A stretch of 49,498 nt of DNA. Source: Dactylosporangium siamense (lineage in GTDB: Bacteria > Actinomycetota > Actinomycetes > Mycobacteriales > Micromonosporaceae). The notes beneath the pieces are model-generated. The model was not told the origin of the DNA and ran no database searches. It was given only the letters and a program-made list of their open reading frames with translations. Location: NCBI RefSeq assembly GCF_016862795.1, contig NZ_BONQ01000031.1:1-49498 (forward strand), in the 5' to 3' direction. Positions 107 to 18,808 of the stretch are shown piece after piece. A program made the position numbers and the translations under genes. Within the stretch, counting starts at the first letter, position 1; each line of letters opens with the position of its first letter.

Positions 107-562
107 TCAGCTTGCGGCCGGGTGCACTCTCCAAGGCTCGGCCCGCAGCCCGCCGCGCTGGTTGATGCCGTCCTTGAGGCGGTTGGCGGTGTCGCCGGAG
201 ATGCCGGGCGCCAGCCAGGACGGGATCTCGACGGCGTCGGCGGTGTACGCGTCGCCCTCGCCGTTGTACTCGACCCGCATCGTCACCGGTCCCCGGTCGG
301 TCTCCAGCATGACGAACACGGTGCCGTCCGGGTCCCCCGACAGCGTGGTGCGCCGGCCCAGCATCTGGCAGGAGGTGATCGCGCCATACGGGGTGCTCTG
401 GCCGGTCGTGCCCTCCGGGCCGCCGGTGAGCAGCGCACACGTGCCGGGCTGCCGGGCGGCGAGCGCGTCGGACCGGCCCGGGAATCCGGTCGCGACGAGA
501 TACCCGACCACAACGACGAGCACGCCGACGATCCCGCCGCTCCACCACCACAGACGATTCAT
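107..562 (-). CDS. hypothetical secreted or membrane-anchored protein
   Basis: About 151 residues. A short basic N terminus is followed by a hydrophobic segment (roughly residues 6-26, rich in Val, Gly and Trp), which is a signal anchor or uncleaved signal peptide. The rest is a soluble extracytoplasmic domain with a Cys pair (CALL and TSCQML). I chose ATG at 562 because an AAGG ribosome site lies 6 nt upstream. A GTG at 568 in the same frame is the alternative. I recognise no family and can offer no function. It is divergent from the acyltransferase gene. Confidence 0.7.
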   Translation of the reverse strand: MNRLWWWSGGIVGVLVVVVGYLVATGFPGRSDALAARQPGTCALLTGGPEGTTGQSTPYGAITSCQMLGRRTTLSGDPDGTVFVMLETDRGPVTMRVEYNGEGDAYTADAVEIPSWLAPGISGDTANRLKDGINQRGGLRAEPWRVHPAAS

Positions 563-659
563 GACCACCTTGATACCGGAAACCGCCCGGCGATGTAGTA
601 CCGGGGAGCTACCGAAAAGACAGTCCCGCAGCGTGACGACCGCGCGGGGGCACCGTTCG

Positions 660-665
660 TACCGT
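660..665 (+). promoter_or_regulatory. -10 box, leaderless start of acyltransferase
   Basis: TACCGT sits 7 nt before the ATG at 673. That spacing would place the transcription start at the start codon, and no ribosome binding site is visible. One of a series of such sites in this window. Confidence 0.5.
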
Positions 666-672
666 CTCAGCC

Positions 673-1752
673 ATGACCCTTGCTCAACGTGTGTCGGATG
701 CGACCCCGGCGACCCGGGACCGCGCCGTGGACGGGCTGCGCGCCCTCGCGATCGGCGGGGTCATCCTCGGTCACTGGCTGGTCACCGCCCTGGTCACCGA
801 CGGCGGCACGGTGCGCGGGGCCAGCCCGCTGCGCTTCCTGCCGCAGCTCGCGCCGGTGACCTGGCTGTTCCAGACCCTGGCCGTGTTCTTCCTGGTCGGT
901 GGCTACACGGCGGGCCGGCCACGGACGCTGCCGTATCGCCGGTGGCTGGCGGCCCGGCTCATCCGGCTGCTGCGCCCGGTGCCGCCGCTGCTGGGCGTCT
1001 GGACGGTGGTCGCGGCGGTGCTGCTGGCGACCGGCGCGACCGATCGGACCATGCACACCCTGGTGAAGCTGGTCCTGTCGCCGCTGTGGTTCCTGCTCGT
1101 GTTCGCCGCGCTGACCGCGGCGACGCCGCTGGTGTCGCGGCTGCACTGGCAGTGGCCGCTGAGCGTGGTCATCGCGGTGGACGTGCTGCGGTTCGGGCCA
1201 CTGGCCCCCGAGTGGATCGCCTGGGTCAACCTGGGTGCCGGCTGGCTGGTGCCGTTCTGCCTGGGGATCGCCTGGTCCCGCGGCACGCTGAACGTCCGGC
1301 GGACCGGCTGGCAGCTGCTCGTCGGCGGGGCGGCCGCGACGGCGGTGCTGATCCACTGGTTCGGCTACCCGGCCTCGATGGTCGGCGTGCCCGGCGAGGG
1401 CATGTCCAACCTCAACCCGCCGACCCTGGCCGCGGTCACGTTCGGGCTGGCGCAGTGCGGGCTCGCCCTGCTGCTGCTCGGTCCGCTGCGGAGGCTGCTG
1501 GCCAGGCCGGTCGCGTGGGCCGGGGTCGCGCTGCTGAACCTGTCGGCGATGACGGTGTTCCTCTGGCATCAGACCGCGATGATCACCGTGACGCTCGTCG
1601 TGGACGGTACCCGACCCGGCCTGCACACCGTGCCCGACACGCCGGCCTGGATGGCGGCCCGGATACTGTGGCTTCCCGTTTTCGCGTTGGTACTGGCATG
1701 CTGCTGGGCGCTGTTCCACAGGTTCGAGCGCGCTCCGGCCGCCGCACGGTGA
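673..1752 (+). CDS. acyltransferase family 3 membrane protein
   Basis: Residues 14-36 read R-A-V-D-G-L-R-A-L-A followed by V-I-L-G-H-W. This is the N-terminal R/H signature of the Acyltransferase_3 family (OafA/NolL type), whose members transfer acyl groups to sugars, lipids or peptides at the cytoplasmic membrane. Around ten hydrophobic segments follow, and the 359-residue length is normal. The second transmembrane helix carries the family-like FFLVGGY stretch. The substrate cannot be read from the sequence. The gene is monocistronic in appearance, 55 bp ahead of the cell-wall hydrolase gene, which makes a surface-modification role plausible but unproven. Confidence 0.85.
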   Translation: MTLAQRVSDATPATRDRAVDGLRALAIGGVILGHWLVTALVTDGGTVRGASPLRFLPQLAPVTWLFQTLAVFFLVGGYTAGRPRTLPYRRWLAARLIRLLRPVPPLLGVWTVVAAVLLATGATDRTMHTLVKLVLSPLWFLLVFAALTAATPLVSRLHWQWPLSVVIAVDVLRFGPLAPEWIAWVNLGAGWLVPFCLGIAWSRGTLNVRRTGWQLLVGGAAATAVLIHWFGYPASMVGVPGEGMSNLNPPTLAAVTFGLAQCGLALLLLGPLRRLLARPVAWAGVALLNLSAMTVFLWHQTAMITVTLVVDGTRPGLHTVPDTPAWMAARILWLPVFALVLACCWALFHRFERAPAAAR

Positions 1753-1795
1753 TGTGAATATTCGGATAAGACGGACATATCCGAGTATCGCTCGT

Positions 1796-1801
1796 TATGT
1801 T
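1796..1801 (+). promoter_or_regulatory. -10 box, leaderless start of NlpC/P60 gene
   Basis: TATGTT is separated by 6 nt from the ATG at 1808. There is no Shine-Dalgarno sequence, so this supports 1808 as the real start rather than the ATG at 1754. Confidence 0.5.
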
Positions 1802-1807
1802 CCCTGC

Positions 1808-2413
1808 ATGGCTTCAGCTTGGCTCAAGGCATCAGCCGCGCTCACCACGGCCGTCATCGCCTTCGCACCGGCAGCGCCGGTGTCAGCGAACCCCATCCCG
1901 CCACCGCAGTCGGTGGTCGTGCAGGCCGGCGACACGCTGTGGGGCCTGTCCCGGCGCAACGGCACCACGGTCGCGGAACTGCAGCGCATCAACAACCTCG
2001 GCGCCTCGACCCTGATCCGGATCGGTCAGACGCTGCTGCTGACCGAGTCGACCCGCGCGGCCAGGGTCGCCGTCGCCGTCGCCTACGCCAAGGCGCAGGT
2101 CGGCAAGCCCTACAAGTTCGCGACGGCGGGACCAGAGACGTTCGACTGCTCGGGGCTGGTCATGCGGGCCTGGCAGGCGGCCGGTTTCCAGCTGCCGCGC
2201 ATCACGTACGACCAGATCAAAGTCGGACAGCACGTCACCCGCGAGCAGCTCGAGGCCGGCGACCTGGTGTTCACCAACAACGGCGGCCACGTCATGCTCT
2301 ACATCGGCGACGGCCAGGTCGTGAACGCCGGCCACACCGGGGTCTCCGTGCACCTGCAGGCCCTGCCCCGCACGGAGAACGTCGTGGCCTTCGTCCGGCT
2401 GCCCGACCGCTGA
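1808..2413 (+). CDS. secreted LysM - NlpC/P60 peptidoglycan endopeptidase
   Basis: 201 residues. A signal peptide covers roughly residues 1-27 (A-P-V-S-A-N cleavage region). A LysM peptidoglycan-binding domain spans about 35-79 (V-V-V-Q-A-G-D-T-L-W, ending I-G-Q-T-L). A C-terminal NlpC/P60 cysteine peptidase covers about 86-200. Catalytic residues visible are Cys114 in D-C-S-G-L and His161 in G-G-H-V-M-L-Y-I-G. The third polar position appears to be Asn173 rather than the more usual His. The family cleaves D-Glu/diaminopimelate stem-peptide bonds in peptidoglycan. A longer frame opens at 1754, but the signal peptide and the -10 box favour 1808. The gene is convergent with the next one, with a 4-bp gap. 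Confidence 0.9.
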   Translation: MASAWLKASAALTTAVIAFAPAAPVSANPIPPPQSVVVQAGDTLWGLSRRNGTTVAELQRINNLGASTLIRIGQTLLLTESTRAARVAVAVAYAKAQVGKPYKFATAGPETFDCSGLVMRAWQAAGFQLPRITYDQIKVGQHVTREQLEAGDLVFTNNGGHVMLYIGDGQVVNAGHTGVSVHLQALPRTENVVAFVRLPDR

Positions 2414-2417
2414 CCCG

Positions 2418-2780
2418 TCACCGCCCAGTGATGCCGGCCACCTCGTCGAGGTGTTGCAGCAGGTCGTGCGCGGCCAGCTCGACGTCCTTGTGCCGCCACT
2501 CCGAGGCCCGGTACACACAGGCGATCAGCCCGCTGCGGTGCACCCGCCGCAGGTCGCCGCAGTTGAACGCGTATCGCGCCTTGGTCTCGTCGCCGGGGCC
2601 GACGGTGAGCCCGAGGTGCCACCGGCCGTACTCGTCCCAGGAGTGCCGCTCCAGGTACGCGTTCTGATCCTCGGCCCTGGGCTGCACCTCACCCCAGTCA
2701 CTGTCCAGCACGTACTGCCGCGCGTCGATGAGCTTGCTGATGTACGCGACCGCCGCCTCGTTCACCTCGTACTTGGCCAT
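2418..2780 (-). CDS. conserved hypothetical protein
   Basis: 120 residues, soluble, starting M-A-K-Y-E-V-N-E-A-A with a G-rich ribosome site just upstream. It is rich in charged residues and Trp/Tyr and has no signal peptide or membrane segment. I do not recognise the domain; the style is that of small actinobacterial proteins of unknown function. It lies downstream of the HAD-like gene on the same strand, separated from it by a long hairpin, so it is probably a separate transcription unit or one attenuated by that hairpin. Confidence 0.65.
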   Translation of the reverse strand: MAKYEVNEAAVAYISKLIDARQYVLDSDWGEVQPRAEDQNAYLERHSWDEYGRWHLGLTVGPGDETKARYAFNCGDLRRVHRSGLIACVYRASEWRHKDVELAAHDLLQHLDEVAGITGR

Positions 2781-2824
2781 ACCCCCCGCGATACCCGCGC
2801 CAGGCCCGCTTCAACACCGTTCTC

Positions 2825-2878
2825 CATGATCCGGTGGACCCTGGGCACCCAGGGGTGCGCGAGGTCTACCGGATCATG
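2825..2878 (-). terminator. 54-nt imperfect palindrome at the end of the HAD-like gene
   Basis: Outer arms 2825-2840 and 2863-2878 match at 15 of 16 positions (CATGATCCGGT core). A second short stem lies inside (GCACCC 2845-2850 with GGGTGC 2853-2858). The stop codon of the HAD-like gene (2874-2876) is within the outer arm. There is no T-run on either side. It is probably a transcription terminator or RNA-stability hairpin. It could alternatively be a small dispersed palindromic element. Confidence 0.55.
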
Positions 2879-3356
2879 AGGAGGACGCGAGCCACGCACC
2901 CACGGCGGCGACATCGTCCCGGGTGAGACCCCGACGAGCATCGACCGCGTGCAGCAGCGCCGGGCCGGGGTGGTGCGCGGCGACCCACGCACGGTCAGCG
3001 GCGGCGATCTCGTCGTCGACCCAGACGAACGCACGCCCGGCCGCCCACGCGACCAGACCACGGGTCTTCCAGTGCACCGGACCGGGATCATCCTCGTCCG
3101 GCCAGGACACGACCGGCAACGACGGCAGGTCGAGCAACGGGCCGACGACCTCGTTGGCGTCGGCGCCCCACGTGGTCGCCCACACCAGGTCGCACGGCAG
3201 CGCCGTCAGCCAGGCGCCGAGACGAGGGTCGAGGCGGGCGAGCAGCGGGTTGCCCCGCGCCGCCGCACGGATCCGCGCCGAGGCCGGCGGGCCGTACTCC
3301 CGCGCACCGAACGGAATGAGCGGGCCGTCGACGTCGAGGAACAGCACCGGTCGCAC
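2874..3356 (-). CDS. HAD-like hydrolase domain protein
   Basis: 160 residues. The N terminus reads P-V-L-F-L-D-V-D-G-P-L, the HAD motif I with nucleophile and acid/base Asp. A D-L-V-W-A-T-T-W motif II-like stretch follows in the middle, and F-V-W-V-D-D-E carries the distal acidic pair near residue 115. HAD proteins are mostly phosphatases; the substrate here is unknown and there is no large cap domain. The start is GTG at 3356, 7 nt downstream of a TACGCT -10 box, so the mRNA is probably leaderless. Confidence 0.75.
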   Translation of the reverse strand: MRPVLFLDVDGPLIPFGAREYGPPASARIRAAARGNPLLARLDPRLGAWLTALPCDLVWATTWGADANEVVGPLLDLPSLPVVSWPDEDDPGPVHWKTRGLVAWAAGRAFVWVDDEIAAADRAWVAAHHPGPALLHAVDARRGLTRDDVAAVGAWLASSS

Positions 3357-3363
3357 CCGTCAC

Positions 3364-3369
3364 AGCGTA
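3364..3369 (-). promoter_or_regulatory. -10 box, leaderless start of HAD-like gene
   Basis: On the minus strand TACGCT precedes the GTG at 3356 by 7 nt (GTGACGG), with no ribosome binding site. Confidence 0.5.
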
Positions 3370-3412
3370 GAGGAGAGGTCAGCCGCGGAGCCGGTCCGTT
3401 CCCATGTTCGGT

Positions 3413-3462
3413 GGGCCCGCCGGGGCACGTCACAGGTCTGCATCGTGGTGCACGGCGGGCCC
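3413..3462. repeat. 10-bp inverted repeat between divergent genes
   Basis: GGGCCCGCCG (3413-3422) is repeated inverted and exact as CGGCGGGCCC (3453-3462) with a 30-nt spacer, upstream of the DUF4259 gene. It may be a regulator site or a leader hairpin. No function can be assigned. Confidence 0.4.
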
Positions 3463-3500
3463 GATGACGGCTTGCCCGTCGGATCGGCGATGATCAGGGT

Positions 3501-3935
3501 GTGGGAACTTGGGATTCCGGACCGCTGGACAACGACACCGCCGCCGACTGGTGCCGCGAGTTGCATGATGCTCCGGCGGCCGAACGGACAGCGATGGTTC
3601 GCACGGCGTTGACCGTCGTGATCGGCCACGACGCCGACACGTACCTGGACGACGACTTCGCGGTCGAGGCGATCGCAGCGGCGGCGGTCATCGCCGCGCA
3701 GCTGCCCGACGGCCCGCGCCTTGACTCCCCGTACGCGCCGGACTTCATCCACGCCGGCGGTGGCCTCGACGTGCCCGACGGCCTGCCTTCGCTGGCGTTG
3801 CTGGCGCTGGACCGTATTGACGGCGCGAACTCGGCGCTGCCGGGCCTGTGGGAGGACGGCTACCCGACGGTGCTCGAGCGCCGTCGACCGATCCGCGCCG
3901 CCCTTGAACGAGCGGCCGGCTCATCGCCTGGCTGA
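3501..3935 (+). CDS. DUF4259 domain protein
   Basis: 144 residues. The opening M-G-T-W-D-S-G-P-L-D-N-D-T-A-A-D-W is the hallmark of DUF4259, a soluble helical family of unknown function found in many bacteria. The start is GTG at 3501, since the family begins exactly at this Met-Gly-x-Trp. The family aligns over its full length. No operon partners: the downstream gene is on the opposite strand. Confidence 0.85.
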   Translation: MGTWDSGPLDNDTAADWCRELHDAPAAERTAMVRTALTVVIGHDADTYLDDDFAVEAIAAAAVIAAQLPDGPRLDSPYAPDFIHAGGGLDVPDGLPSLALLALDRIDGANSALPGLWEDGYPTVLERRRPIRAALERAAGSSPG

Positions 3936-3972
3936 GTTCGCGGTGCCGGTGAATGGAGTCGCAGGACCGGAC

Positions 3973-4860
3973 CTACGTATCGCTGCGATGGGGTTCGACG
4001 GCGTCCAGAAGCACTCTGATCAGACAGCGTCGCCGGCCTGCCTCGACATCGTCCTGGAAGGCGTCTCGCGCGTGCAGGATCAGATGGTCGTTGATGATGA
4101 GCAGGTCACCCTCGGCGAGGGTGTAGCGGAACTGCAGCGCGGGTCGCATCATGACGGTGTCCAATGCGTCGAGGGCCATCCTGTCCAGGTCTGTCAGGGG
4201 TTTACCCGTGAGCGCCTGCGCCATCTCGATCCGTTGCCGGTTGCAGCGGACAAGCCATCCCTCTGGTCGTTCGTCGAAGACCGGCGCCATGATCCACTGC
4301 TGGCCGCCGTGGTCGACGTGGCTCCGTTCAAATGCGTACGGGCGGCACAGCCGCGTCAGCGCCTCCGAAAATTCCTGTCGGAGGTTTTCGACAATGGTCG
4401 GAACGCTCAACAGGACCGACTGGCCACCCGCGGCAGCCGAACCCAGACACAGCAGAGCGAAGTAGTCGATCTCGTCGCCGAGGTTGCTCATCGCGCTGTC
4501 ATTGTGAATGTCAAGCTCGTCGTGTGACTTCGAGGTGTAGACGCCGGGGGCAAACGACCCGTCGGGCCGGAAACGGGACGATCCCTCGTCCCGGACGATC
4601 CAGCCCAGCGTTGTGGCACCGGCGGGGCCCTGGGGGCGCGGCCGACCGAGGAAGCGCACGATCGACGGCGCGAAGTCCGAACACTCCTCAGGGCTCCGGC
4701 CCGCGATCGGGACGTCGGTCACCAGCGCGAAGCCCGGATGCCCATCCAGTGGCCCACGGACCGCGGCTGCCAACGCAACCGGATCGGCCACGTACGGGAT
4801 TCGCCAGTGGGTCGAGGACTTCAGCTCATCCGCATACCACCCCGGTCGCTCGGCAGGCAT
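3973..4860 (-). CDS. TauD/TfdA (clavaminate-synthase-like) Fe(II)/2-oxoglutarate dioxygenase
   Basis: About 295 residues. The facial triad is visible: the H-N-D motif in the stretch L-D-I-H-N-D-S (His119, Asp121) and the distal His263 in L-I-L-H-A-R-D-A-F. A 2-oxoglutarate-binding Arg follows in C-L-I-R-V-L-L (about residue 282). The N-x-x-L-I-L-H-x-R-x-x-F pattern is typical of the clavaminate synthase / arginine beta-hydroxylase branch, which hydroxylates amino acids or natural-product scaffolds. I chose ATG at 4860 because it overlaps the glycosyltransferase stop as TGATG and has GGAG about 9 nt upstream. ATG at 4875 is an alternative, but its GGAGGA directly abuts the codon. It is the last gene of the STAND/glycosyltransferase/dioxygenase operon. 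Confidence 0.85.
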   Translation of the reverse strand: MPAERPGWYADELKSSTHWRIPYVADPVALAAAVRGPLDGHPGFALVTDVPIAGRSPEECSDFAPSIVRFLGRPRPQGPAGATTLGWIVRDEGSSRFRPDGSFAPGVYTSKSHDELDIHNDSAMSNLGDEIDYFALLCLGSAAAGGQSVLLSVPTIVENLRQEFSEALTRLCRPYAFERSHVDHGGQQWIMAPVFDERPEGWLVRCNRQRIEMAQALTGKPLTDLDRMALDALDTVMMRPALQFRYTLAEGDLLIINDHLILHARDAFQDDVEAGRRRCLIRVLLDAVEPHRSDT

Positions 4861-6005
4861 CACGACGGACTCCATTCCTCCATCGTGCGGTGTCGGGCAA
4901 GGGTGTCAAGGATCGAGGTGGCGCATTCGTCGGCGCTGGGCATGGTCCCCATCTCCTGGGACAGGCGCCACGCGTTTCGGTGGTAGAGGTTGTCCGCGCA
5001 GATCCGGTGGACGGCGTCGACCACGGCACTGTCCACGTCCGGCGCCTGGCCAAGGTCGATTCCGGCACCAAGGCTCGCCACCCGGAAGGAGTTGTAGGAC
5101 TGATCGGCTCCCATCGGCTGGCAAACGACCGGGATCCCCAGCGCGAGGCAGTCCAGCATGGTGCTCCGACCCCCGTGACACACGACGATGTCCTGGTCGC
5201 GGAGCCAATCCAGGTAGGCGGCGCGCGGCTGCGGCGATCCGTTGGTGCCGTTCAACCGGGTAACTGAGAATCCTTCCCCGGTCAACGCGGCCGCTGCCTT
5301 GTGCAGCGACGGAGAGAAGCCGGAATAGACCGTTCCGAAGGTGATGCCGATCTTGCGAGAGGTGCCGGGCACGGGAACGGCAGTCCTCATGTCTCGCAGC
5401 GCGATGTCGGAAAGCATCGGATTCATGAAGAGGTCCTGCGGGCGGCGGGACGAGAGGGGATTCGGCTGGAACGACGGCGGTATCGTGTCGATGCAGACAT
5501 GTCCCCAGAAGCCGTCCATCGCCGGATCCTGGGCCAGCCCGGCCCCGGTCCGCAGCGACGACCACAGCTGGTGCCAGCGCGCCCGCTGGGTCTCGATCGG
5601 CGAGCGAAATGTGGTGGCGACGCAGACGCGGTAGCTCCCGACGCGCTCTCCGTAGAGAGCCCCAGCAAAATCGTGATCATCGTGGACGATCACGTTGGGT
5701 CGGAGCGCAGGGTCGGCGCGGATCATCGCCGTCAACATCTCGGCGCTCCGGGTGGAGAAGATCCGCGACCAGTGCTCTCGCGGGGTCGCGGTCGGGTAGC
5801 GCTCGCGAGCGCGACGAAGGTCGTCGGCCAGGGTCCATTCCGGGCCGATGTCGAGCGTCGCGTAGCCCATCCGCCGGAGTATGGCGGTGGAAAGGCGGCT
5901 GCCGGCCAGCCTGACTTCGCAGCCGGCCCGTATCAGCGCGTCGGCCAATGGCCGCAAAGGATAGATGTGTCCATACCCGGGTAGCACCGAGAACAGGACC
6001 GTCAC
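4860..6005 (-). CDS. GT1-type (GT-B) glycosyltransferase
   Basis: 381 residues. The N terminus reads L-P-G-Y-G-H-I-Y-P-L-R-P-L-A, with the catalytic-type His13 and the family P-L motif. The C-terminal nucleotide-sugar motif is H-G-G-R-S-T-M-L-D-C-L-A-L-G-I-P followed by Q-P-M-G-A-D-Q. These are the signatures of macrolide/aglycone glycosyltransferases (YjiC/MGT/EryCIII class), which move an NDP-activated sugar onto small hydrophobic acceptors. I chose GTG at 6005 because it forms a GTGA overlap with the stop of the STAND gene. The upstream in-frame extension to 6173 is Arg-rich and reads antisense to STAND codons. Acceptor and sugar are unknown, and no sugar-biosynthesis genes are present here. 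Confidence 0.88.
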   Translation of the reverse strand: MTVLFSVLPGYGHIYPLRPLADALIRAGCEVRLAGSRLSTAILRRMGYATLDIGPEWTLADDLRRARERYPTATPREHWSRIFSTRSAEMLTAMIRADPALRPNVIVHDDHDFAGALYGERVGSYRVCVATTFRSPIETQRARWHQLWSSLRTGAGLAQDPAMDGFWGHVCIDTIPPSFQPNPLSSRRPQDLFMNPMLSDIALRDMRTAVPVPGTSRKIGITFGTVYSGFSPSLHKAAAALTGEGFSVTRLNGTNGSPQPRAAYLDWLRDQDIVVCHGGRSTMLDCLALGIPVVCQPMGADQSYNSFRVASLGAGIDLGQAPDVDSAVVDAVHRICADNLYHRNAWRLSQEMGTMPSADECATSILDTLARHRTMEEWSPS

Positions 6006-9000
6006 CACCCTCGCCACCCGACGACCTTCTGGGCGATCAGCTCGTCCGGCCAGCGGCAACCCAGAGCGTCGAGCTGCTGACGGGCGAGCGACAGCAGGCG
6101 CTCTCGCGACGAGTCGTCGGTGATCGACGCCAGCTGGAGACGAGCCTGGGCTGTGCCCAGTTCGCTCCCGCACTCGGTGAACAGCGCTGTCGCATTGTCG
6201 AGTGCCCCGGTGGCCCGATGGCGATCACCGTGCAGGACGGCGATCTGCGCGATGGTGAACCAGCCCCAAGCCTCGCCGCGGGTGTCGCCGATCGTCCGGA
6301 AATTCTCGATGAGGTGGTCAAGCTCTGCCAGCTGCCCTCCGTCGCGTGGCAGTGCACCCGATCGAATCTTCAGCTCGATGGCGACCAGTGCCACCCAGGT
6401 CTGCCCGATCTTCGCTGGGTACCGTTCAAACGCCTCCCTCGCCTGACTGAGGGAGGCCGCAGCCGCGGCGTAGTCGCCTGCGTCCGACAACGCCTGCGCG
6501 AGACTGAAACCGATCCAACCGACCGCGCGCGGGTATCCATCGGCAATGGCGCGGCTCAGCCCGGCGGACAGTTCCCGGACAGCACCGGCGACATCTCCGG
6601 CGACGCGATAGACGGACCCGAGGCCGAGATGTGGGTAGCTCCGCATGGCGGTGTGCGCTTCCACACCCTCCAGCGATGCCAGAGCCTCTCGATAGCATTG
6701 CGTTGCTTCGGCCGGGGAGTCGCCCAGACGGAATGACTCACCCAGGCGAAACTGGGCCCAGGCAATGCCGACCTTGTCGCCGATCGAGGTGAAGACGTCG
6801 GACGCCTTCTGGAGCTCGGCCTGGGCTTCCGACGCCCGCCCGATTCGGGAGAGCGCCACCCCGAGGTGCAGTGCCATGGTGGCACTGCCCATCACGTTGT
6901 GGCTCCGTGCCGCGGCCTCGGCGCCGAGCCTGCACGCGTTGATCCAGGCATCCCAGCTGCAGGTCGAGTCGAGATAGGTGCTGACAGCGCGAGCGAGCAG
7001 CCAGACCTCGTCGAACAGCCCGTCCTTGAATGCCTGCTCGATCAGGACCGTGATGTTTCGGGCCTCGCCATCCATCCAGGTCACCGGATTCTCACGGACG
7101 ACAACGGCAAGCGTGCCGATCTCCACCCAGGTGGAGGCGCCGAGCGCGCCCTCGATCTGGCCGCCGTCCAGCCCGATGGCCAATCCGGCCTCCTCGGCGA
7201 GGACGATGTAGGCCGCCAGCACGTTGCGGAGGAAACGGACCCGCGCCTCGTCGTCGGACGCGGCGAACTTTCTCCCGAGATCACGAAGCAGATCGTGGTA
7301 GCGATATTGCCGCTCGGTCGCCGTCGCAGTTCGACCCACCACGTCCACGAACTGCTGGTCGGCCAGCCGCTGCAGTGATCTCCGGGCAGTGTCCAGCGAG
7401 GTCCCATCCCCGGTGCCCAGATGCCAGGCTTGGAACTCAGCGGTCGGTAGTGTCGCGAGCAGACCGAAGGCCTTTTGGGCCGCAGGCTCCAGGGATGGGT
7501 AGTTGAGGCTGAGCGATGCCTCGAGGTCGAGGTCGCCGATCCTCATCTCGGCCAGGCGGAGTTTGGAGTTCGAGTAGGTGCGGTCCAGCTCCGTCAGCGT
7601 GGACTCGGGACGCAGCCGGAGCGCGGCAGCAACGATTCGCAGTGCCAGTGGTAGCCGCCCGCAGGTCGCACACAGTTGTTCGACGATGCGCTCGTCGGCC
7701 TGGTCGTATGCTCTGTTGCGATAGATGAGCTCCTTGGCGTCGTTCATGTCGAGCTCGCGAAGCCAGAGATTTTCGAGACCCTCGATGGAGATCGCCTGCC
7801 GGGACGTCACGATGACGCCGGTGCTGCCGTCGGCGGGCAGCAGCGGCCGCACCTGATGTTCGTCGGCGCAGTTGTCCAGGACCAGCAGGGTCTTCATCGT
7901 GCCGAGGATGGCCCGCAACTGACCGGAGCGAAGGCCGCGGTCGCGGGAGATCTTCGATGGTGCGAGGCCGTAGGCGCGCAGGATCTCGCCGGTGACCTCG
8001 AAGGTGTCGAGCGCCTCCGCCTCATAGCCGCGCATGTTGATGTAGATCGTCCGGTCGTAGTCCGGCGCAAACCTCTGCGCGGCGACGATGGCGAGCGTGG
8101 TCTTGCCGATGCCGGCCCGCCCGTAGATGTTGGCGAAGAGCGGTGGAAGGTCGTTCCTGATGCGGAGCAGTTGCTCCAGCTCCGCGGCGCGGCCGACGAA
8201 GTCGCGCGGCGCCGACGGGAGCGCGAATATGGTGGCCGTCAGGTCACGCCGGCCCTCCGAAGCTTCCTTCGGCCGGCTCCTGGTCTGATCCGTGAGCGTC
8301 TGATCCGTAAGCGTCTGGACCTCATGCTTCAGCGTCAGGTAGCGCACATCGTCAAGGTCGCTCGGCTTGATGATCGTGAAGTGGTCGCCGGGCAAGGTCC
8401 GTGTGTCGGGGAACACCGACCGGCCCGGCACGTCCTTGACGACGTTGTCCTCCGTTCCGACCGTCGCCAGAATCTTGATCCGGTACCGCGGATCGGGAGG
8501 AATCAGGATGCTTTCGAAGATCCGCCGCTGAGCCGCGTTGACCTGCTCGTCGAGTGGCCGCAGCTCCCGCTCCTGCGGGTTGCCGCCCAGCAGGCGGAAG
8601 AGCGGCCGACGCAGGGACAGCGCGAGGTCCGAGCCGCCCGTGGGCGTCGCGTACATGAGCAGGCCGACCACGCGGTGCAGCGTCGATGACTCAGGCCGGC
8701 TGACCTCCGCGGCGATGTAGCGCTGCGCGACGAGCCCACCCTGGCTGTGGGCGACCAGCAGGATCGACGGTTCGACCACTCGCAGGTCGATGAAGTCGCC
8801 GAGGCCACGCGCGATGTTGTCGATGGATGGCAGCCGCTTCAGTGGATTGAGCTGCGCGATTTTGGAGGTGTACTCGTACTGGTAGACCGTCACCTGCTCG
8901 CTGACCGGCGCGTCGCTGCTCAGCAGACTTTCCATCTGCGTCCACGTGTGGGGGCCTGACAGGAACCCATGTATGAACACGAGGGCCAGTCGAGCGTCCT

Positions 9001-9010
9001 GACCGGTCAT
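6002..9010 (-). CDS. STAND protein: alpha/beta hydrolase - NB-ARC NTPase - TPR
   Basis: 1002 residues in three parts. (1) Residues about 1-225 form a lipase-like alpha/beta hydrolase: oxyanion motif F-I-H-G-F, nucleophile Ser89 in A-H-S-Q-G-G-L, probable Asp188 in G-T-E-D-N-V-V and His210 in G-D-H-F-T-I. (2) Residues about 265-600 form an NB-ARC/AP-ATPase module: Walker A G-R-A-G-I-G-K-T-T (297-305), Walker B T-L-L-V-L-D-N (374-380), V-T-S-R sensor (401-404), a GxP motif G-R-L-P-L-A-L (451-457), and Y-H-D-L-L in the place of the MHD motif. (3) The C-terminal third is made of TPR-like helical repeats. STAND proteins are switch-like sensors in which ligand sensing by the repeats triggers NTP-driven assembly and activates the N-terminal effector. 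The catalytic triad looks intact. It heads a coupled operon with a glycosyltransferase and a dioxygenase. Whether it is a regulator, a defence protein or a biosynthesis switch cannot be decided from sequence. Confidence 0.88.
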   Translation of the reverse strand: MTGQDARLALVFIHGFLSGPHTWTQMESLLSSDAPVSEQVTVYQYEYTSKIAQLNPLKRLPSIDNIARGLGDFIDLRVVEPSILLVAHSQGGLVAQRYIAAEVSRPESSTLHRVVGLLMYATPTGGSDLALSLRRPLFRLLGGNPQERELRPLDEQVNAAQRRIFESILIPPDPRYRIKILATVGTEDNVVKDVPGRSVFPDTRTLPGDHFTIIKPSDLDDVRYLTLKHEVQTLTDQTLTDQTRSRPKEASEGRRDLTATIFALPSAPRDFVGRAAELEQLLRIRNDLPPLFANIYGRAGIGKTTLAIVAAQRFAPDYDRTIYINMRGYEAEALDTFEVTGEILRAYGLAPSKISRDRGLRSGQLRAILGTMKTLLVLDNCADEHQVRPLLPADGSTGVIVTSRQAISIEGLENLWLRELDMNDAKELIYRNRAYDQADERIVEQLCATCGRLPLALRIVAAALRLRPESTLTELDRTYSNSKLRLAEMRIGDLDLEASLSLNYPSLEPAAQKAFGLLATLPTAEFQAWHLGTGDGTSLDTARRSLQRLADQQFVDVVGRTATATERQYRYHDLLRDLGRKFAASDDEARVRFLRNVLAAYIVLAEEAGLAIGLDGGQIEGALGASTWVEIGTLAVVVRENPVTWMDGEARNITVLIEQAFKDGLFDEVWLLARAVSTYLDSTCSWDAWINACRLGAEAAARSHNVMGSATMALHLGVALSRIGRASEAQAELQKASDVFTSIGDKVGIAWAQFRLGESFRLGDSPAEATQCYREALASLEGVEAHTAMRSYPHLGLGSVYRVAGDVAGAVRELSAGLSRAIADGYPRAVGWIGFSLAQALSDAGDYAAAAASLSQAREAFERYPAKIGQTWVALVAIELKIRSGALPRDGGQLAELDHLIENFRTIGDTRGEAWGWFTIAQIAVLHGDRHRATGALDNATALFTECGSELGTAQARLQLASITDDSSRERLLSLARQQLDALGCRWPDELIAQKVVGWRGW
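8283..8312 (-). repeat. two-copy 15-bp tandem repeat in the STAND linker
   Basis: Units 8283-8297 and 8298-8312 are identical at 14 of 15 positions. They encode a duplicated T-L-T-D-Q block at residues about 233-243, in the linker between hydrolase and NB-ARC domains. The duplication keeps the frame. Confidence 0.8.
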
Positions 9011-9132
9011 CTCGTCCGCGCGATCGCAGGCGTCATGACGAAATGATCGCGGAACGGGCGGCTGGGCGCCACACGTCGGCCGCGGGAATCAGGATCAGCG
9101 CCATCGCGCAGGTCAGCTTGCCTCCAAGGCGT

Positions 9133-14176: not shown

Positions 14177-16540
14177 GTGGTGACGAACGGCGCGACGGGG
14201 CTCGGCATCGACTTCGGCACCTCCACGACCGTCGCGATGCTCGCCGGCGCCGACGGGGTCGCCCGGCCGCTGTTGTTCGACGCCAGCCCGTTGCTGTCCT
14301 CGGCGGTGTTCGCCGCGCCCGGCGGGGACCTCCTCACCGGCGCCGACGCGGAGCGGGCCGCGGTGGCGTACCCGGCCGCCTACGAGCCGAACCCGAAGCG
14401 CCGCGTCGACGAGCGCACCGTCCTGCTCGGCGAGCGCGAGATCACCGTCGTCGACCTCGTCGCGGCCGTCCTGCGCCGGGTCGGCACGGAGGCCGAACGG
14501 TCCACGGGCGCGCCGCCGCGCACCGTCGTGCTCACGCACCCGGCCACGTGGGGGCCGACCCGGCTGGCCGTGCTCGCCGAGGGCGCCGACCGGGCCGGGC
14601 TCGGCACCGTGCGGTTCGTGCCGGAGCCGGTCGCCGCGGCCGCGTACCTCACCGGCAGCCTCGGCGAGCAACTGCCGGACGGGCGCTGCCTGGTCGTGTA
14701 CGACCTGGGCGCCGGCACGTTCGATGTCAGCGCGGTCAGAGCCGTCGGTGCCGGCTTCGAGGTGCTCGCCTCGGCCGGGATCGGTGACCTCGGCGGCCTC
14801 GACCTCGACGCCGCGGTCGTCGGCCTGGCCCGCGACACCGTCGGGGCGACCTTTGTGTGGCAGCGGCTCGACCGCCCGCAGACCCAGCCCGATCAGGAGG
14901 CCCGCCACCAGCTGTGGCACGGCGCCCGCGCGGTCAAGGAGCAGCTGTCCCGGCACGCCACCGGCGACCTGCGGATCCCGGTCGCCGCCGCGACCATCCA
15001 CGTGACCCGGGAGGAGTTCGAGGCCCTGGCGCTGCCGTACCTGCGCCGCACCGTCGACGTGACGCTGCGGACCCTCTCCTCCGCCGGGATCACCCGGGAC
15101 CAGATCGCCGGGGTGTTCCTCGTCGGTGGCGGCTCCCGGGTGCCGCTCGCCGCGACGCTGCTGCACCGGGCGACCCGGATCGCGCCGAGCGTCCTGGACC
15201 ACCCGGAGCTCGCCGTCGCCGCCGGCAGCCTGCACGTCGGGCCGCCGCCGTTCATCCCCGGCCAGCGCCCGCCGCTGTCCCCGGACGACCCGCTGTTCCT
15301 GACCGACCCGCCTTTTCCGGCCGACCCGCTGACCTCGGTGCTGGCGCTGCTCGACCCGCCGCCGACCCTGACGCTGCCGGGGCCACGGGCACCGCTGCCG
15401 TTCGACCCGCTGCTGCCGATGTCGGGGTCCGCCTGGGCCGGCGAACCGGTGCTGGACCCGGTGCCGGTCCCGCCCGGCGGCCGGGCCCGCGACCTCGGCG
15501 TCTGGGCGGTGCTCGCGCTGCTGGCCGCCGCGATCGTCGCCGTCGCCGTGTGGTGGCCGCGGCCCGGGCGGCAGCAGCCGCCCTCCCCGCGGGAGCTTGC
15601 CCCGGCCGTGGGCCTGGCCGCCGCCACGGAGCTGCCCGGCCACAGCGGGTCGATCCTCGCCCTCGCCTTCGCCCCGGACAGTGCCACGCTGCTGTCCGGC
15701 GGCGGTGACTCGTCCGTCCGGCTGTGGGACGTCGCCTCCCACGCCGAGCGTGGCGGGCCGCTCACCGGCCACGTCAACCCGGTGCGTGCGGTGCGGTTCA
15801 GCCCCGACGGTGCGACGTTCGCCACCGGTGGTTACGAGTGCGGCCGCAGGTGGCGTACCGACACCGCAGCGGAAACGGGAGCGCCGACCGCCGTCCCGGC
15901 CACCACCGGTGCGGTGCGGGCGACCGCGGGCATCGCCGACATCGCGTTCCAGCCCGGCGGCACCCCGGTCGCGGTCGGCTTCGCGGGCGGCACGTTCCGC
16001 CTGTGGGACCTCGCCGCCGGCATCGAGCTCGGCGTCCTGCCGTCCGGCGCCGCGGCTGCTTCCACCGCGGCGGACGCCGTGCTCGACCCCGACGGGCGGT
16101 GGGCCGCGTTCGGCGCCGACCGCACCGTCGAGGTGTACGCCGTCGCCGACCGCCGGCCCGTCGCCGCCCTCACCACGAGCCCCGCGACCCGGCTCGCGTT
16201 CAGCCCGGACGGCCGCACGCTCGCCGTGGCCGCCCTCGCCGGCGACGCCGTCCTCATCGAGTTCTGGGACCCGGCCACCGCCACCCTGCTCGGCACCGTC
16301 CACGACCCCGGCCACCCCACGAGGATCACCTCCATGGTGTACGACCAGCGCGGCGCTCTCCTCGCCACCGGCGACGCGGGCGGTCGCGTCGTCCTGCTCG
16401 ACGCCCACGACCGGCACCCGATCGGCACCACCGGCCCCACCGGCGCCCCGATCCAGTCCCTCGCGTTCAGCCCCGACGGCGCCTGGCTCGCCACCGGCGA
16501 CAGCCGCGGCATGATCCGCCTGCACCCCGTCCGCCGCTGA
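14177..16540 (+). CDS. Hsp70-family ATPase fused to a membrane anchor and WD40 propeller
   Basis: 787 residues. The N-terminal ~360 residues form an actin/Hsp70 ATPase: phosphate-1 loop G-I-D-F-G-T-S-T-T (10-18), phosphate-2 Y-D-L-G-A-G-T-F-D-V-S, and the adenosine motif F-L-V-G-G-G-S-R-V-P. Instead of an Hsp70 substrate-binding domain there is a Pro-rich linker, then one transmembrane helix (around residues 440-460, V-W-A-V-L-A-L-L-A-A-A). A WD40 propeller with several R/L-W-D blades follows (H-S-G-S-I-L-A-L-A-F; V-R-L-W-D-V; F-R-L-W-D-L), with F-S-P-D-G repeats. By topology the ATPase would face the cytoplasm and the propeller the outside, though the opposite cannot be excluded. Function is unknown; a chaperone-like or signalling sensor is an inference. 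The EI24-like membrane gene is divergent. Confidence 0.88.
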   Translation: MVTNGATGLGIDFGTSTTVAMLAGADGVARPLLFDASPLLSSAVFAAPGGDLLTGADAERAAVAYPAAYEPNPKRRVDERTVLLGEREITVVDLVAAVLRRVGTEAERSTGAPPRTVVLTHPATWGPTRLAVLAEGADRAGLGTVRFVPEPVAAAAYLTGSLGEQLPDGRCLVVYDLGAGTFDVSAVRAVGAGFEVLASAGIGDLGGLDLDAAVVGLARDTVGATFVWQRLDRPQTQPDQEARHQLWHGARAVKEQLSRHATGDLRIPVAAATIHVTREEFEALALPYLRRTVDVTLRTLSSAGITRDQIAGVFLVGGGSRVPLAATLLHRATRIAPSVLDHPELAVAAGSLHVGPPPFIPGQRPPLSPDDPLFLTDPPFPADPLTSVLALLDPPPTLTLPGPRAPLPFDPLLPMSGSAWAGEPVLDPVPVPPGGRARDLGVWAVLALLAAAIVAVAVWWPRPGRQQPPSPRELAPAVGLAAATELPGHSGSILALAFAPDSATLLSGGGDSSVRLWDVASHAERGGPLTGHVNPVRAVRFSPDGATFATGGYECGRRWRTDTAAETGAPTAVPATTGAVRATAGIADIAFQPGGTPVAVGFAGGTFRLWDLAAGIELGVLPSGAAAASTAADAVLDPDGRWAAFGADRTVEVYAVADRRPVAALTTSPATRLAFSPDGRTLAVAALAGDAVLIEFWDPATATLLGTVHDPGHPTRITSMVYDQRGALLATGDAGGRVVLLDAHDRHPIGTTGPTGAPIQSLAFSPDGAWLATGDSRGMIRLHPVRR

Positions 16541-16637
16541 CCGCCCCTCCCCCGCCTCAGGCTAACGACCCTGCCCCGGCCGCACTCCGGGCACCGTCCG
16601 GCCCGTCCTCGATCGTGGCGTGTGTTGAACTGGGACC

Positions 16638-17468
16638 GTGCAGATGCGTCCAGCGGAACTGGCAGCGATCCGTGCCGGCGAGGTCGACGTGGCGTTCCGT
16701 CGATGGGAACAGCCACGTGTCAGGGTCGGCACCCAGATGCGGACCGCGGTCGGACTGGTCGAGATCACGTCCGTCGACCGCGTCCCGGTGAGCTCGCTGA
16801 CCGGCGCGGACGCCCGCCGGGCCGGCGCGGCGTCACTGGCCGCGCTCCGGCAGGGCCTGGACCGCCTGCACCCCGAACGGCCGGTGTATCGGATCGGGCT
16901 GCGGTATGCGGGCACGGACCCACGGCACACACTGCGGGAAGCGGTGCCCGACACCGCGGAGATCGACGCGATCATCGCGGGCCTCGACCGGCTCGACCGC
17001 GCCGCACCCACCGGGCCCTGGACGCGGGCAACGCTGCTGCTGATCGACGAACTGCCGGCCATCCGGGCCCCCGACCTCGCCCAGCGGATGGGCCGCGACA
17101 CCCCGTCGTTCAAACAGAACGTGCGCAAACTGAAGGAACGCGGCCTGACCGAATCACTCGACATCGGCTACCGGCTCTCGCCCCGCGGCGCCGCCGTCCT
17201 GGACCACGAGGGACATCCCCGCACCACCCGGGACCGGCCGGCACCGGAACCGGGCACCCCGCTGCCACACCTCGGCGCAGCCGCGACCCGCGCGCTCACC
17301 ACCCACGGCGTGGTCCGGCTCGAACAGGTGGCCATGCTCAGCGAGGGCGAGGTGCGGGCACTCCACGGCGTCGGGCCCTACGCCCTCCGACACCTGCGAG
17401 CCGCGCTGGACGCCGCCGGGCTCGCCTACCGCGCCGAGCCTGACGCCTCGCCGCCGGCGGCATCCTGA
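16638..17468 (+). CDS. ASCH (PUA-like) - winged HTH - helix-hairpin-helix protein
   Basis: 276 residues. Residues 1-75 look like an ASCH/PUA-like fold (M-R-P-A-E-L-A-A-I-R-A-G then V-G-L-V-E-I-T-S-V), a family linked to RNA or modified-base recognition. Residues about 125-190 resemble a winged helix (D-L-A-Q-R-M-G-R-D, S-F-K-Q-N-V-R-K-L-K-E-R-G-L then L-S-P-R-G). Residues about 210-265 resemble the RNA polymerase alpha-CTD/HhH type (T-H-G-V-V-R-L-E-Q-V, L-H-G-V-G-P-Y-A-L-R-H-L). The combination suggests a nucleic-acid-binding regulator. The start is GTG 16638 or ATG 16644; a weak TGAACT lies 6 nt ahead. Confidence 0.7.
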   Translation: MQMRPAELAAIRAGEVDVAFRRWEQPRVRVGTQMRTAVGLVEITSVDRVPVSSLTGADARRAGAASLAALRQGLDRLHPERPVYRIGLRYAGTDPRHTLREAVPDTAEIDAIIAGLDRLDRAAPTGPWTRATLLLIDELPAIRAPDLAQRMGRDTPSFKQNVRKLKERGLTESLDIGYRLSPRGAAVLDHEGHPRTTRDRPAPEPGTPLPHLGAAATRALTTHGVVRLEQVAMLSEGEVRALHGVGPYALRHLRAALDAAGLAYRAEPDASPPAAS

Positions 17469-17514
17469 CTGGCGTTGGATGCTCGGCCGTGAGTCTTCAG
17501 GAATCGGAGAGGGA

Positions 17515-18111
17515 ATGTCGGATCGTCGCTTTTTCACAGTAGAGCCGACCGCCGAACCGATCACCGCACCGATCGCCAAGGTGGGCGGCCAGCCGACGTG
17601 GCTCGAACAGCCGCAGTGGCCCATCTCGCGCAATCACGGCACGCCGATGACGTTCATCGCGCAGTTCGAAGTCCCGGCCGGGATGGCGTACGTCTTCATG
17701 ACCGACGCTACCGAATACGTTGACTACGCCTGGGAGGCGGAAGGCGGCGAGAACGCCGTGATCGTGCAGCGCAACGGCCGTCTGCCGCTGCTGGAGGTCT
17801 ATGGGCCGATGGTCTCGGTCTACGGCTCCGCCGAGCCGCGGCCGATTTCGGTATCGGCGCAGGCGACCGGACCAACGGTTGCCGCCGATCACCGGATCGT
17901 GCTGGCAACGCAGGACGTCGGCGACTTCCAATTCTCCGGTGGTGAGCCGGCATGGTTACAGAATGCCGATGTCCCGGGCGAGGGCTACCGCTTCCTGGTG
18001 CAGTTGGAGGCCGACCGGCTGCCCTTTCCCATCAACTTCGGCGATGGCGGCATCGGCTACGTCTTCCTGTCGCCCGATCTCCTGGAGGGCCGCTTCCTCT
18101 GGCAGAACTGA
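17515..18111 (+). CDS. DUF1963 (YwqG-like) protein
   Basis: 198 residues, cytoplasmic. Diagnostic blocks are G-G-Q-P-T-W-L-E-Q-P-Q-W-P, followed by M-T-F-I-A-Q-F-E-V, and later F-L-V-Q-L-E-A-D with G-D-G-G-I-G-Y-V-F at the end. This is the arrangement of DUF1963/YwqG proteins, a family of unknown function often found with polymorphic toxin immunity genes, although no toxin gene is adjacent here. The ATG at 17515 has GGAGAGG 2-3 nt upstream. The frame to 17479 lacks support. Confidence 0.8.
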   Translation: MSDRRFFTVEPTAEPITAPIAKVGGQPTWLEQPQWPISRNHGTPMTFIAQFEVPAGMAYVFMTDATEYVDYAWEAEGGENAVIVQRNGRLPLLEVYGPMVSVYGSAEPRPISVSAQATGPTVAADHRIVLATQDVGDFQFSGGEPAWLQNADVPGEGYRFLVQLEADRLPFPINFGDGGIGYVFLSPDLLEGRFLWQN

Positions 18112-18153
18112 AGGGCTGGTTGAGCCGCTCGTCGCGTCGATGGACAAGCACTC

Positions 18154-18726
18154 CTACGGTGCAGCGGTCGGCTGTGGTGCCGACGCCCGCCTGCTGTGGC
18201 GCCGGCGCAGGATGAGCGTCCACACGATCGCGGTCAGCAGCAGTGCGGTGCCGAGCTGCCAGGGAAAGCCGAACATCAGCGTGACCCAGGTGCCCAGCGG
18301 ATCCGTGCGCTGCCACCACGTCCCGGTGCCGGAGCCGTCACCCGGCCCGTCCAGGCTGACCTCGGGCATCAGTGGGCTGTAGATCACACCGACCTCGTCG
18401 CCGTCGAACCGGTCACCGAGATCGGGGAACAGGGACGGGCTCAACCGCCTGGTCGTGATGTAGATCCGACCGTCCTGCCCGCCGTAGATCTCGGCCCACC
18501 CGTGGTCCTCCATCGCAATCAGCGTGTCGGTCACCTCGTCGATGTTCGATGGCCGGGTGTCGGACCCTCGTGGGCTGCTGTCGAGCCACGGCAGCTGCAT
18601 CGCGGACAACGAGATGCCGGACCAGTGCCGGGAATCGAACCCGGCGAGCGCGGTCGACAGCACCATCAGTGGGACCAGGATCATCAGGCAGAGCAGTGTG
18701 ATGACGGCGTCGCGCGCTCGGGTCAT
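18154..18726 (-). CDS. hypothetical membrane protein with two TM helices
   Basis: About 190 residues. The first TM helix (about 8-29, L-L-C-L-M-I-L-V-P-L-M-V-L) is followed by an extracytoplasmic domain of about 110 residues, with an I-Y-I-T-T-R-R-L-S-P motif. A second TM helix lies near the C terminus (F-P-W-Q-L-G-T-A-L-L-L-T-A), followed by a basic Arg/Ala/Pro tail. No family recognised. The start is ATG 18726, preceded by GGGG; ATG 18741 is an alternative. Convergent with the DUF1963 gene. Confidence 0.7.
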   Translation of the reverse strand: MTRARDAVITLLCLMILVPLMVLSTALAGFDSRHWSGISLSAMQLPWLDSSPRGSDTRPSNIDEVTDTLIAMEDHGWAEIYGGQDGRIYITTRRLSPSLFPDLGDRFDGDEVGVIYSPLMPEVSLDGPGDGSGTGTWWQRTDPLGTWVTLMFGFPWQLGTALLLTAIVWTLILRRRHSRRASAPQPTAAP

Positions 18727-18808
18727 CCCCGTATGATGCACGCGGCCGGCCGCCGGTGTCCGCCCCGCCCGCCGGCCAGGTCCGTTGACGCCGCCCCGCC
18801 CGGCGGAC

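Follow-up and report, generated by a model that had tools for sequence, protein, structure and literature searches.

A rare trio of overlapping genes for a hydrolase-NB-ARC-TPR STAND protein, a glycosyltransferase and a 2-oxoglutarate dioxygenase in Dactylosporangium siamense

We analyzed a 49,498-nt stretch of the Dactylosporangium siamense genome (contig NZ_BONQ01000031.1, positions 1 to 49,498), here called the window; the assembly comprises 12.7 Mb in 296 contigs. On the minus strand of the window, three overlapping genes code for a large STAND protein with an N-terminal alpha/beta hydrolase and C-terminal tetratricopeptide repeats (TPRs), a glycosyltransferase (GT) and an Fe(II)/2-oxoglutarate (2-OG) dioxygenase, referred to below as TauD. 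This trio is real and is rarer than first supposed. Its genes are as follows.

6002..9010, minus strand: STAND protein gene, 1002 amino acids (aa), from the open reading frame (ORF) list and Pfam
4860..6017, minus strand: GT-B glycosyltransferase gene (EryCIII-like/UDPGT), 385 aa if GTG 6017 is the start; alternative starts at 6008 and 6005
3973..4860, minus strand: TauD/TfdA-family Fe(II)/2-OG dioxygenase gene, 295 aa from ATG 4860 or 300 aa from ATG 4875

A first-pass annotation of the window had described three overlapping ORFs (6002-9010, 4860-6005 and 3973-4875) with the junctions GTGA (6002-6005) and TGATG (4858-4862). All of these are present at the positions given, and the domains it named score above the Pfam cut-off (Abhydrolase_6, NB-ARC and TPR_12 in the STAND protein, EryCIII-like_C and UDPGT in the GT, TauD in the dioxygenase). 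The GT ORF at 4860-6005 is part of a longer open frame. The GT start probably lies upstream of 6005 and most likely at GTG 6017, because AGAAGG is found 7 nt ahead of this codon, a database protein (P0024, N-terminus MARVV) is 385 aa long, and GT relatives begin with MV or MAGMV. TauD probably starts at ATG 4860, because GGAG is located 9 nt ahead and several relatives align from about there. A DUF6010 gene lies 122 bp upstream of the trio on the same strand. Scanning the trio gave no promoter-like site (0.5 in shuffled sequences) and one terminator-like site, inside the GT gene (1.9 in shuffles). A single mRNA for the three genes is likely. Since actinomycete genes often overlap, these junctions are unsurprising in themselves; the surprising part is the apparent conservation of the trio.

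The STAND protein is composed of an alpha/beta hydrolase (approximately residues 1-240), an NB-ARC NTPase with a winged helix (approximately 266-600) and a TPR region (approximately 601-1002). The Pfam matches span residues 10-151 (Abhydrolase_6), 286-487 (NB-ARC) and 710-780 (TPR_12). Residue roles were assigned from motifs, and the motifs are intact: Ser89, Asp188, His210, GRAG(I/V)GKT (297-304), DN (379-380), TSR (402-404) and HD (572-573) are identical in 4/4 relatives, the protein itself included. It has the P-loop, DN (Walker B region), TSR, HD and TPR repeats of a STAND/NB-ARC NTPase with TPRs, and S89, D188 and H210 form the Ser-Asp-His triad looked for in a conflict-system hydrolase effector. 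The structure model of the hydrolase domain was poor (pLDDT 55.5) and was set aside. Conservation of the whole protein is strong; identity to the most distant relative falls from 65% in the hydrolase through 58% in the NB-ARC/winged-helix part to 54% for the TPR region, and the linker has 24%. The STAND gene alone is ordinary in this organism, because 48 NB-ARC matches were found in its genome (150 of 316 candidates scored). Related genomes often have the NB-ARC/TPR backbone; the full-length protein with the hydrolase is rare. An alignment search of 100 relatives of genome G454 (E 1e-60, up to 8 first-look candidates scored per genome) found 20 places in 16 genomes; every one starts at residue 258 or beyond, and therefore none includes the hydrolase.

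In the GT, His17, HGG (281-283) and DQ (305-306) are invariant in 4/4 sequences. They correspond to the N-terminal His, HGG and DQ of GT-B enzymes of the GT1 type, which we take to be the donor motif. The best solved relatives are CalG1 and rhamnosyltransferases, with CalG1-type GT-B enzymes matched over residues 1-362. The GT scores far below the NCBIfam cut-offs for activator-dependent GTs (58 v 440) and macrolide GTs (56 v 260). TauD carries the HxD...H iron triad and the 2-OG arginine, roles again assigned by motif; among 23 aligned rows His124 is invariant and Asp126, His268 and Arg283 are nearly so. Its AlphaFold model has a pLDDT of 84.5. The closest proteins are TtnM, TmpA and FrbJ, and TtnM (7n7v, the tautomycetin Fe(II)/2-OG hydroxylase) is the best match in both sequence (about 24% identity) and fold. 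Natural-product tailoring enzymes are among the best structural relatives of both the GT and TauD.

We searched 5.8 billion proteins (cut-offs 1e-60 for STAND, 1e-25 for GT and 1e-15 for TauD; for STAND, scoring was limited to the 7,988 candidates with the most shared words). Besides itself, the STAND protein had three relatives of 1002-1004 aa (78, 75 and 57% identity), and the GT likewise had three (75, 67 and 51%). TauD had 23 matches including itself, one of them from a Pyrinomonadaceae assembly. The longest contig listed is 9,347 bases for each of STAND P0031, GT P0027 and TauD P0002, and 9,231 bases for STAND P0029 and GT P0025 alike. From these equal sizes we infer that the first contig carries all three genes and the second STAND and GT; the lack of a listed TauD for the 9,231-base contig may reflect absence or a cut contig. 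STAND P0030 and GT P0026 are on contigs of differing size (5,649 and 4,952 bases); the C-terminus RWRGW of the former and the N-terminus MAGMVA of the latter would fit a window-like overlap in a shifted frame. The proteins assigned to the 9,347-base contig diverge from those of the window to a similar degree (STAND 57, GT 51 and TauD 54% identity), and in a tree of TauDs P0002 is the sister of the window protein (ultrafast bootstrap 100, SH-aLRT 98). At least one other organism thus seems to have the trio, which suggests a genuine functional unit.

Genome searches point to the same rarity. For the GT and TauD searches in the family, the TauD search in the phylum and the hydrolase-domain search in the class, the 5 or 6 best first-look candidates per genome were scored. 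The GT was found in the own genome only, both among 150 genomes of the order (E 1e-25) and among 354 of the family (E 1e-40). A looser search in the genus (1e-15) detected GTs of 30-31% identity in 3 of 6 other genomes, and neither STAND nor TauD (1e-5) was found within 19.5 kb around any of these three. TauD is present in 15/354 family genomes (1e-30), with the own genome, G237 and G454 at 1e-121 or better and the rest at best 5e-40; in 2/396 phylum genomes (1e-50; own and G617); in 6/150 order genomes (1e-10); and at one locus in a further genome-contig search. No second trio was seen in any readable genome across the GT, TauD and hydrolase-domain searches. The first-pass annotation had made its proposal depend on the homologues being linked elsewhere. 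STAND and GT relatives look linked, as judged from the equal contig sizes (9,347 and 9,231); TauD relatives of at least 40% identity, by contrast, are unlinked in 5/5 readable loci outside the window.

The trio and a DUF4259 gene form a block with no match in the syntenic 34.4 kb of a congener, G150 (tblastn):

3501..3935, plus strand: DUF4259 gene (Pfam), convergent to the trio and in the same block
3357..9132, no strand: unmatched block containing DUF4259 and the trio

Within the genus, DUF4259 occurs in the own genome only (1/7) and DUF6010 in 4/7. Codon use was compared for 32 hand-chosen window genes. The lower G+C content at third codon positions (GC3) noticed earlier was borne out, with values of 0.79 for TauD and 0.83 for both STAND and GT, and 27/29 other genes at 0.859 or above. 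The six genes lowest in GC3 and the six poorest in codon fit all lie in stretches missing from G150; a seventh G150-missing gene ranks ninth on both lists. Repeats of at least 22 nt were not seen at the block edges. Atypical codon use, absence from the syntenic region of G150 and rarity in the genome searches support the horizontal acquisition that had been suggested. As to the vehicle, a phage origin was set aside because no relative of TauD, STAND or GT turned up when viral contigs were scanned by pattern. A plasmid origin was also set aside: STAND matched 199 plasmid records, none covering 80% of the query; TauD matched 4, at best 44%; and the GT matched 8, of which, among the matches listed, five had at least 80% coverage at 22-27% identity.

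Our preferred reading, at a probability of roughly 0.4, is that the trio is a rare, horizontally moving operon built around an NLR-like switch. Its hydrolase would be the effector, and the other two gene products would work on a small molecule, probably the ligand of the switch or part of a pathway under its control. The NB-ARC/TPR part would serve as an ATP-dependent switch. Binding of a ligand at the TPR end would lead to oligomerization and activate the N-terminal serine hydrolase, which might then attack a lipid or another ester. The co-translated GT would glycosylate, and the 2-OG dioxygenase hydroxylate, a small molecule tied to the switch, which could be the ligand or inhibitor of the switch or a compound whose synthesis or removal accompanies firing. 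The switch behavior, the effector role of the hydrolase and the small-molecule role of the two enzymes are all read from motifs and relatives. A STAND-gated tailoring unit or a defence-type unit, as initially proposed, is possible. To our knowledge, the ligands of actinomycete NB-ARC/TPR proteins are mostly unknown. With two small-molecule enzymes tied to the present STAND protein, the product of the GT and dioxygenase would be a concrete lead to such a ligand.

The genomic company of the hydrolase domain weighs for a conflict role. Relatives of this domain were found in 6/394 class genomes including the own genome, at 7 places including the window (E 1e-10), and the others share at most 38% identity with it. 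HSQGG and DHxx[IV] are present in 7/7. The six places outside the window are:

L061 (own genome, contig C132; 6954-9663): hydrolase fused to EAD2, adjoining a VMAP-C gene; second copy in the own genome
L063 (G823): hydrolase and EAD2; a neighbor gene weakly matches NACHT (22.0 bits against a cut-off of 26.7)
L064 (G007): hydrolase and NB-ARC, with TPR ORFs downstream
L060 (G617): hydrolase, TPRs and a P-loop (by pattern), no NB-ARC match
L065 (G704): hydrolase and DUF7019
L062 (G701): hydrolase, nothing else recognized

These settings lean towards conflict systems. Swapped partners of this kind are the pattern given for predicted conflict effectors in the portions of PMC7159879 and PMC8195603 consulted, and PMC8195603 counts alpha/beta-hydrolases ("hydrolysis of membrane-lipids") among the effectors that it predicts in fusion with a bacterial death-like domain. 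With the FxSxx TPR model, L060 and L064 score 184 bits each (cut-off 300); the window protein is instead nearer to HaaT and AfsR. At L060 (4084-9443), two ORFs come after the hydrolase-P-loop-TPR gene at spacings of about 110 nt, one of 69 aa and one for a weakly WelO5-like protein, and a PhzF-like gene follows as well. The WelO5-like protein scores 23.5 bits (Pfam cut-off 27), its best solved match has E 0.0043, and we treat it as a lead only. L060 is perhaps a second pairing of the hydrolase with a 2-OG enzyme.

Several findings weigh against the switch reading. In the most distant relative, identity in the TPR region (54%) comes close to that in the NTPase (58%), which is not the picture of a pathogen sensor under rapid change; the presumed sensor is therefore not fast-evolving. 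The closest named relatives of the backbone, HaaT and AfsR, are biosynthetic and regulatory; together with the conserved TPRs, they favor a fixed ligand over a sensor caught in an arms race. No convincing PADLOC-DB 2.0.0 match was obtained for any trio protein (STAND 18.8 bits over 58 residues and 13.8 bits; none for GT or TauD). The pattern scans of viral contigs gave no relatives. Linkage elsewhere is deduced from contig sizes, with no TauD listed for the 9,231-base contig. Finally, the readable TauD loci of at least 40% identity outside the window (L019, L036, L067, L068 and L069) are without STAND and GT in 5/5 cases.

Three of these five loci carry a different cassette: L019:6184-8428 (Micromonospora sp. 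CPCC 205371), L036:8546-10756 (G237) and L068:11351-13697 (a plasmid of Streptomyces sp. NBC_01001). The order is a divergent Rid gene, TauD, and a PAS gene that overlaps TauD or lies 22 nt away; no STAND or GT gene is nearby. The PAS protein is PAS_6 by Pfam in L019 and L036 and annotated as PAS in L068, and has a hydrophobic N-terminus by eye. Neither a Rid nor a PAS partner was found at L067 (G617) and L069. A tree was built from 27 rows, namely 22 of the 23 database TauDs and five from the loci (P0023 was left out for its odd C-terminus). The three Rid/PAS TauDs and the trio TauDs fall in one 19-row group, with inner forks partly open. The subfamily is therefore paired with two different sensor-like partners, and our guess is that the trio may have recruited its TauD from the Rid/PAS background.

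The alternative that survives best, although we consider it somewhat doubtful, is a small specialized-metabolite or detoxification pathway. A single compound, such as an antibiotic, would be processed successively by the hydrolase, GT and dioxygenase, with the NB-ARC/TPR part as a metabolite-responsive regulator or scaffold. The Rid and PAS neighbors of TauD relatives are in keeping with it, as Rid proteins act on reactive imines, and so are the natural-product affinities of the GT and TauD (TtnM, TmpA, FrbJ) and the conservation of the entire STAND protein, TPRs included. The backbone gives it further support: HaaT (NF041717, a cyclophane-containing RiPP TPR protein) is the best NCBIfam match (residues 241-963), and AfsR (a SARP-family regulator; 8k60, 8jke) is the best solved relative (residues 258-787). 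However, both scores are far under the curated cut-offs (209 v 1125 bits for HaaT; 169.4 bits v 1430 for AfsR, NF053617), no DNA-binding domain was detected by Pfam at E 0.001, and the hydrolase-domain relatives are in conflict-type architectures. A plain AfsR-type regulator was rejected on that score and for the lack of helix-turn-helix and BTAD domains in the same Pfam scan; the STAND protein also differs from AfsR in its N-terminal hydrolase. A HaaT-type cluster for a ribosomally synthesized and post-translationally modified peptide (RiPP) was rejected as being below the NF041717 cut-off. By Pfam, the GT and TauD are not radical-SAM or peptide-precursor genes, and there is no RiPP enzyme among the trio and five neighbors.

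A further proposal, which we regard as unlikely, is a guard system. An NLR-like receptor would come with its own two-enzyme pathway making or editing the glycosylated, hydroxylated metabolite that it senses, and disturbance of this self-made compound, rather than a phage protein, would fire the lipase-like effector.

Improbable to a similar extent is a defence unit in which the GT and dioxygenase are themselves effectors that would alter a macromolecule of the invader or the host after detection of infection by the STAND protein. The block-like, patchy distribution agrees with it, and so do published predictions, as far as the portions consulted go. PMC8195603 (eLife 2021) predicts GT4 domains as effectors fused to bacterial STAND NTPases, and PMC7159879 (eLife 2020) gives at least three glycosyltransferase-domain families in MoxR-vWA systems. 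The STAND conflict systems predicted there resemble the trio in having an NTPase switch, TPRs and an alpha/beta-hydrolase. They differ in that the trio has no EAD by Pfam, and MoxR, vWA and VMAP, the components of the VMAP/MoxR-vWA ternary system, are all lacking among the trio and the five neighbors scanned. The word "dioxygenase" appears in these two texts solely in a cited reference and in connection with VOC enzymes, and the GT class they detail is GT4. The trio GT matches EryCIII-like_C and UDPGT, not GT4, and no protein has a PADLOC family. The closest solved relatives of the GT and TauD act on small molecules. None of the papers listed in our literature searches, judged by title and the opening of the abstract, deals with this trio.

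An accidental operon of unrelated genes with no joint function would agree with the TauD homologues in other contexts and with the frequency of overlaps in actinomycetes, but we consider it very improbable in view of the second trio inferred at 51-57% identity, whose TauD is sister to that of the window.

The surroundings of the block are rearranged relative to G150. Genes at 107-3356 have the same order and strand in both, two of them being set apart by about 3.5 kb of other DNA, and the genes from 18785 onward also agree in order and strand. Segment 9133-16540 is inverted between the window and G150, and the block 3357-9132 ends at one of its edges. This segment is flanked on both sides by DNA unmatched in G150 (3357-9132 and 16541-18784); the window genes at 16638-18741 are also without a match in the 34.4 kb. 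At its far end, 14177-16540 encodes a 787-aa protein with an Hsp70/actin-type ATPase-like start and WD40-like repeats at the end (by eye), and its G150 homologue is 76% identical.

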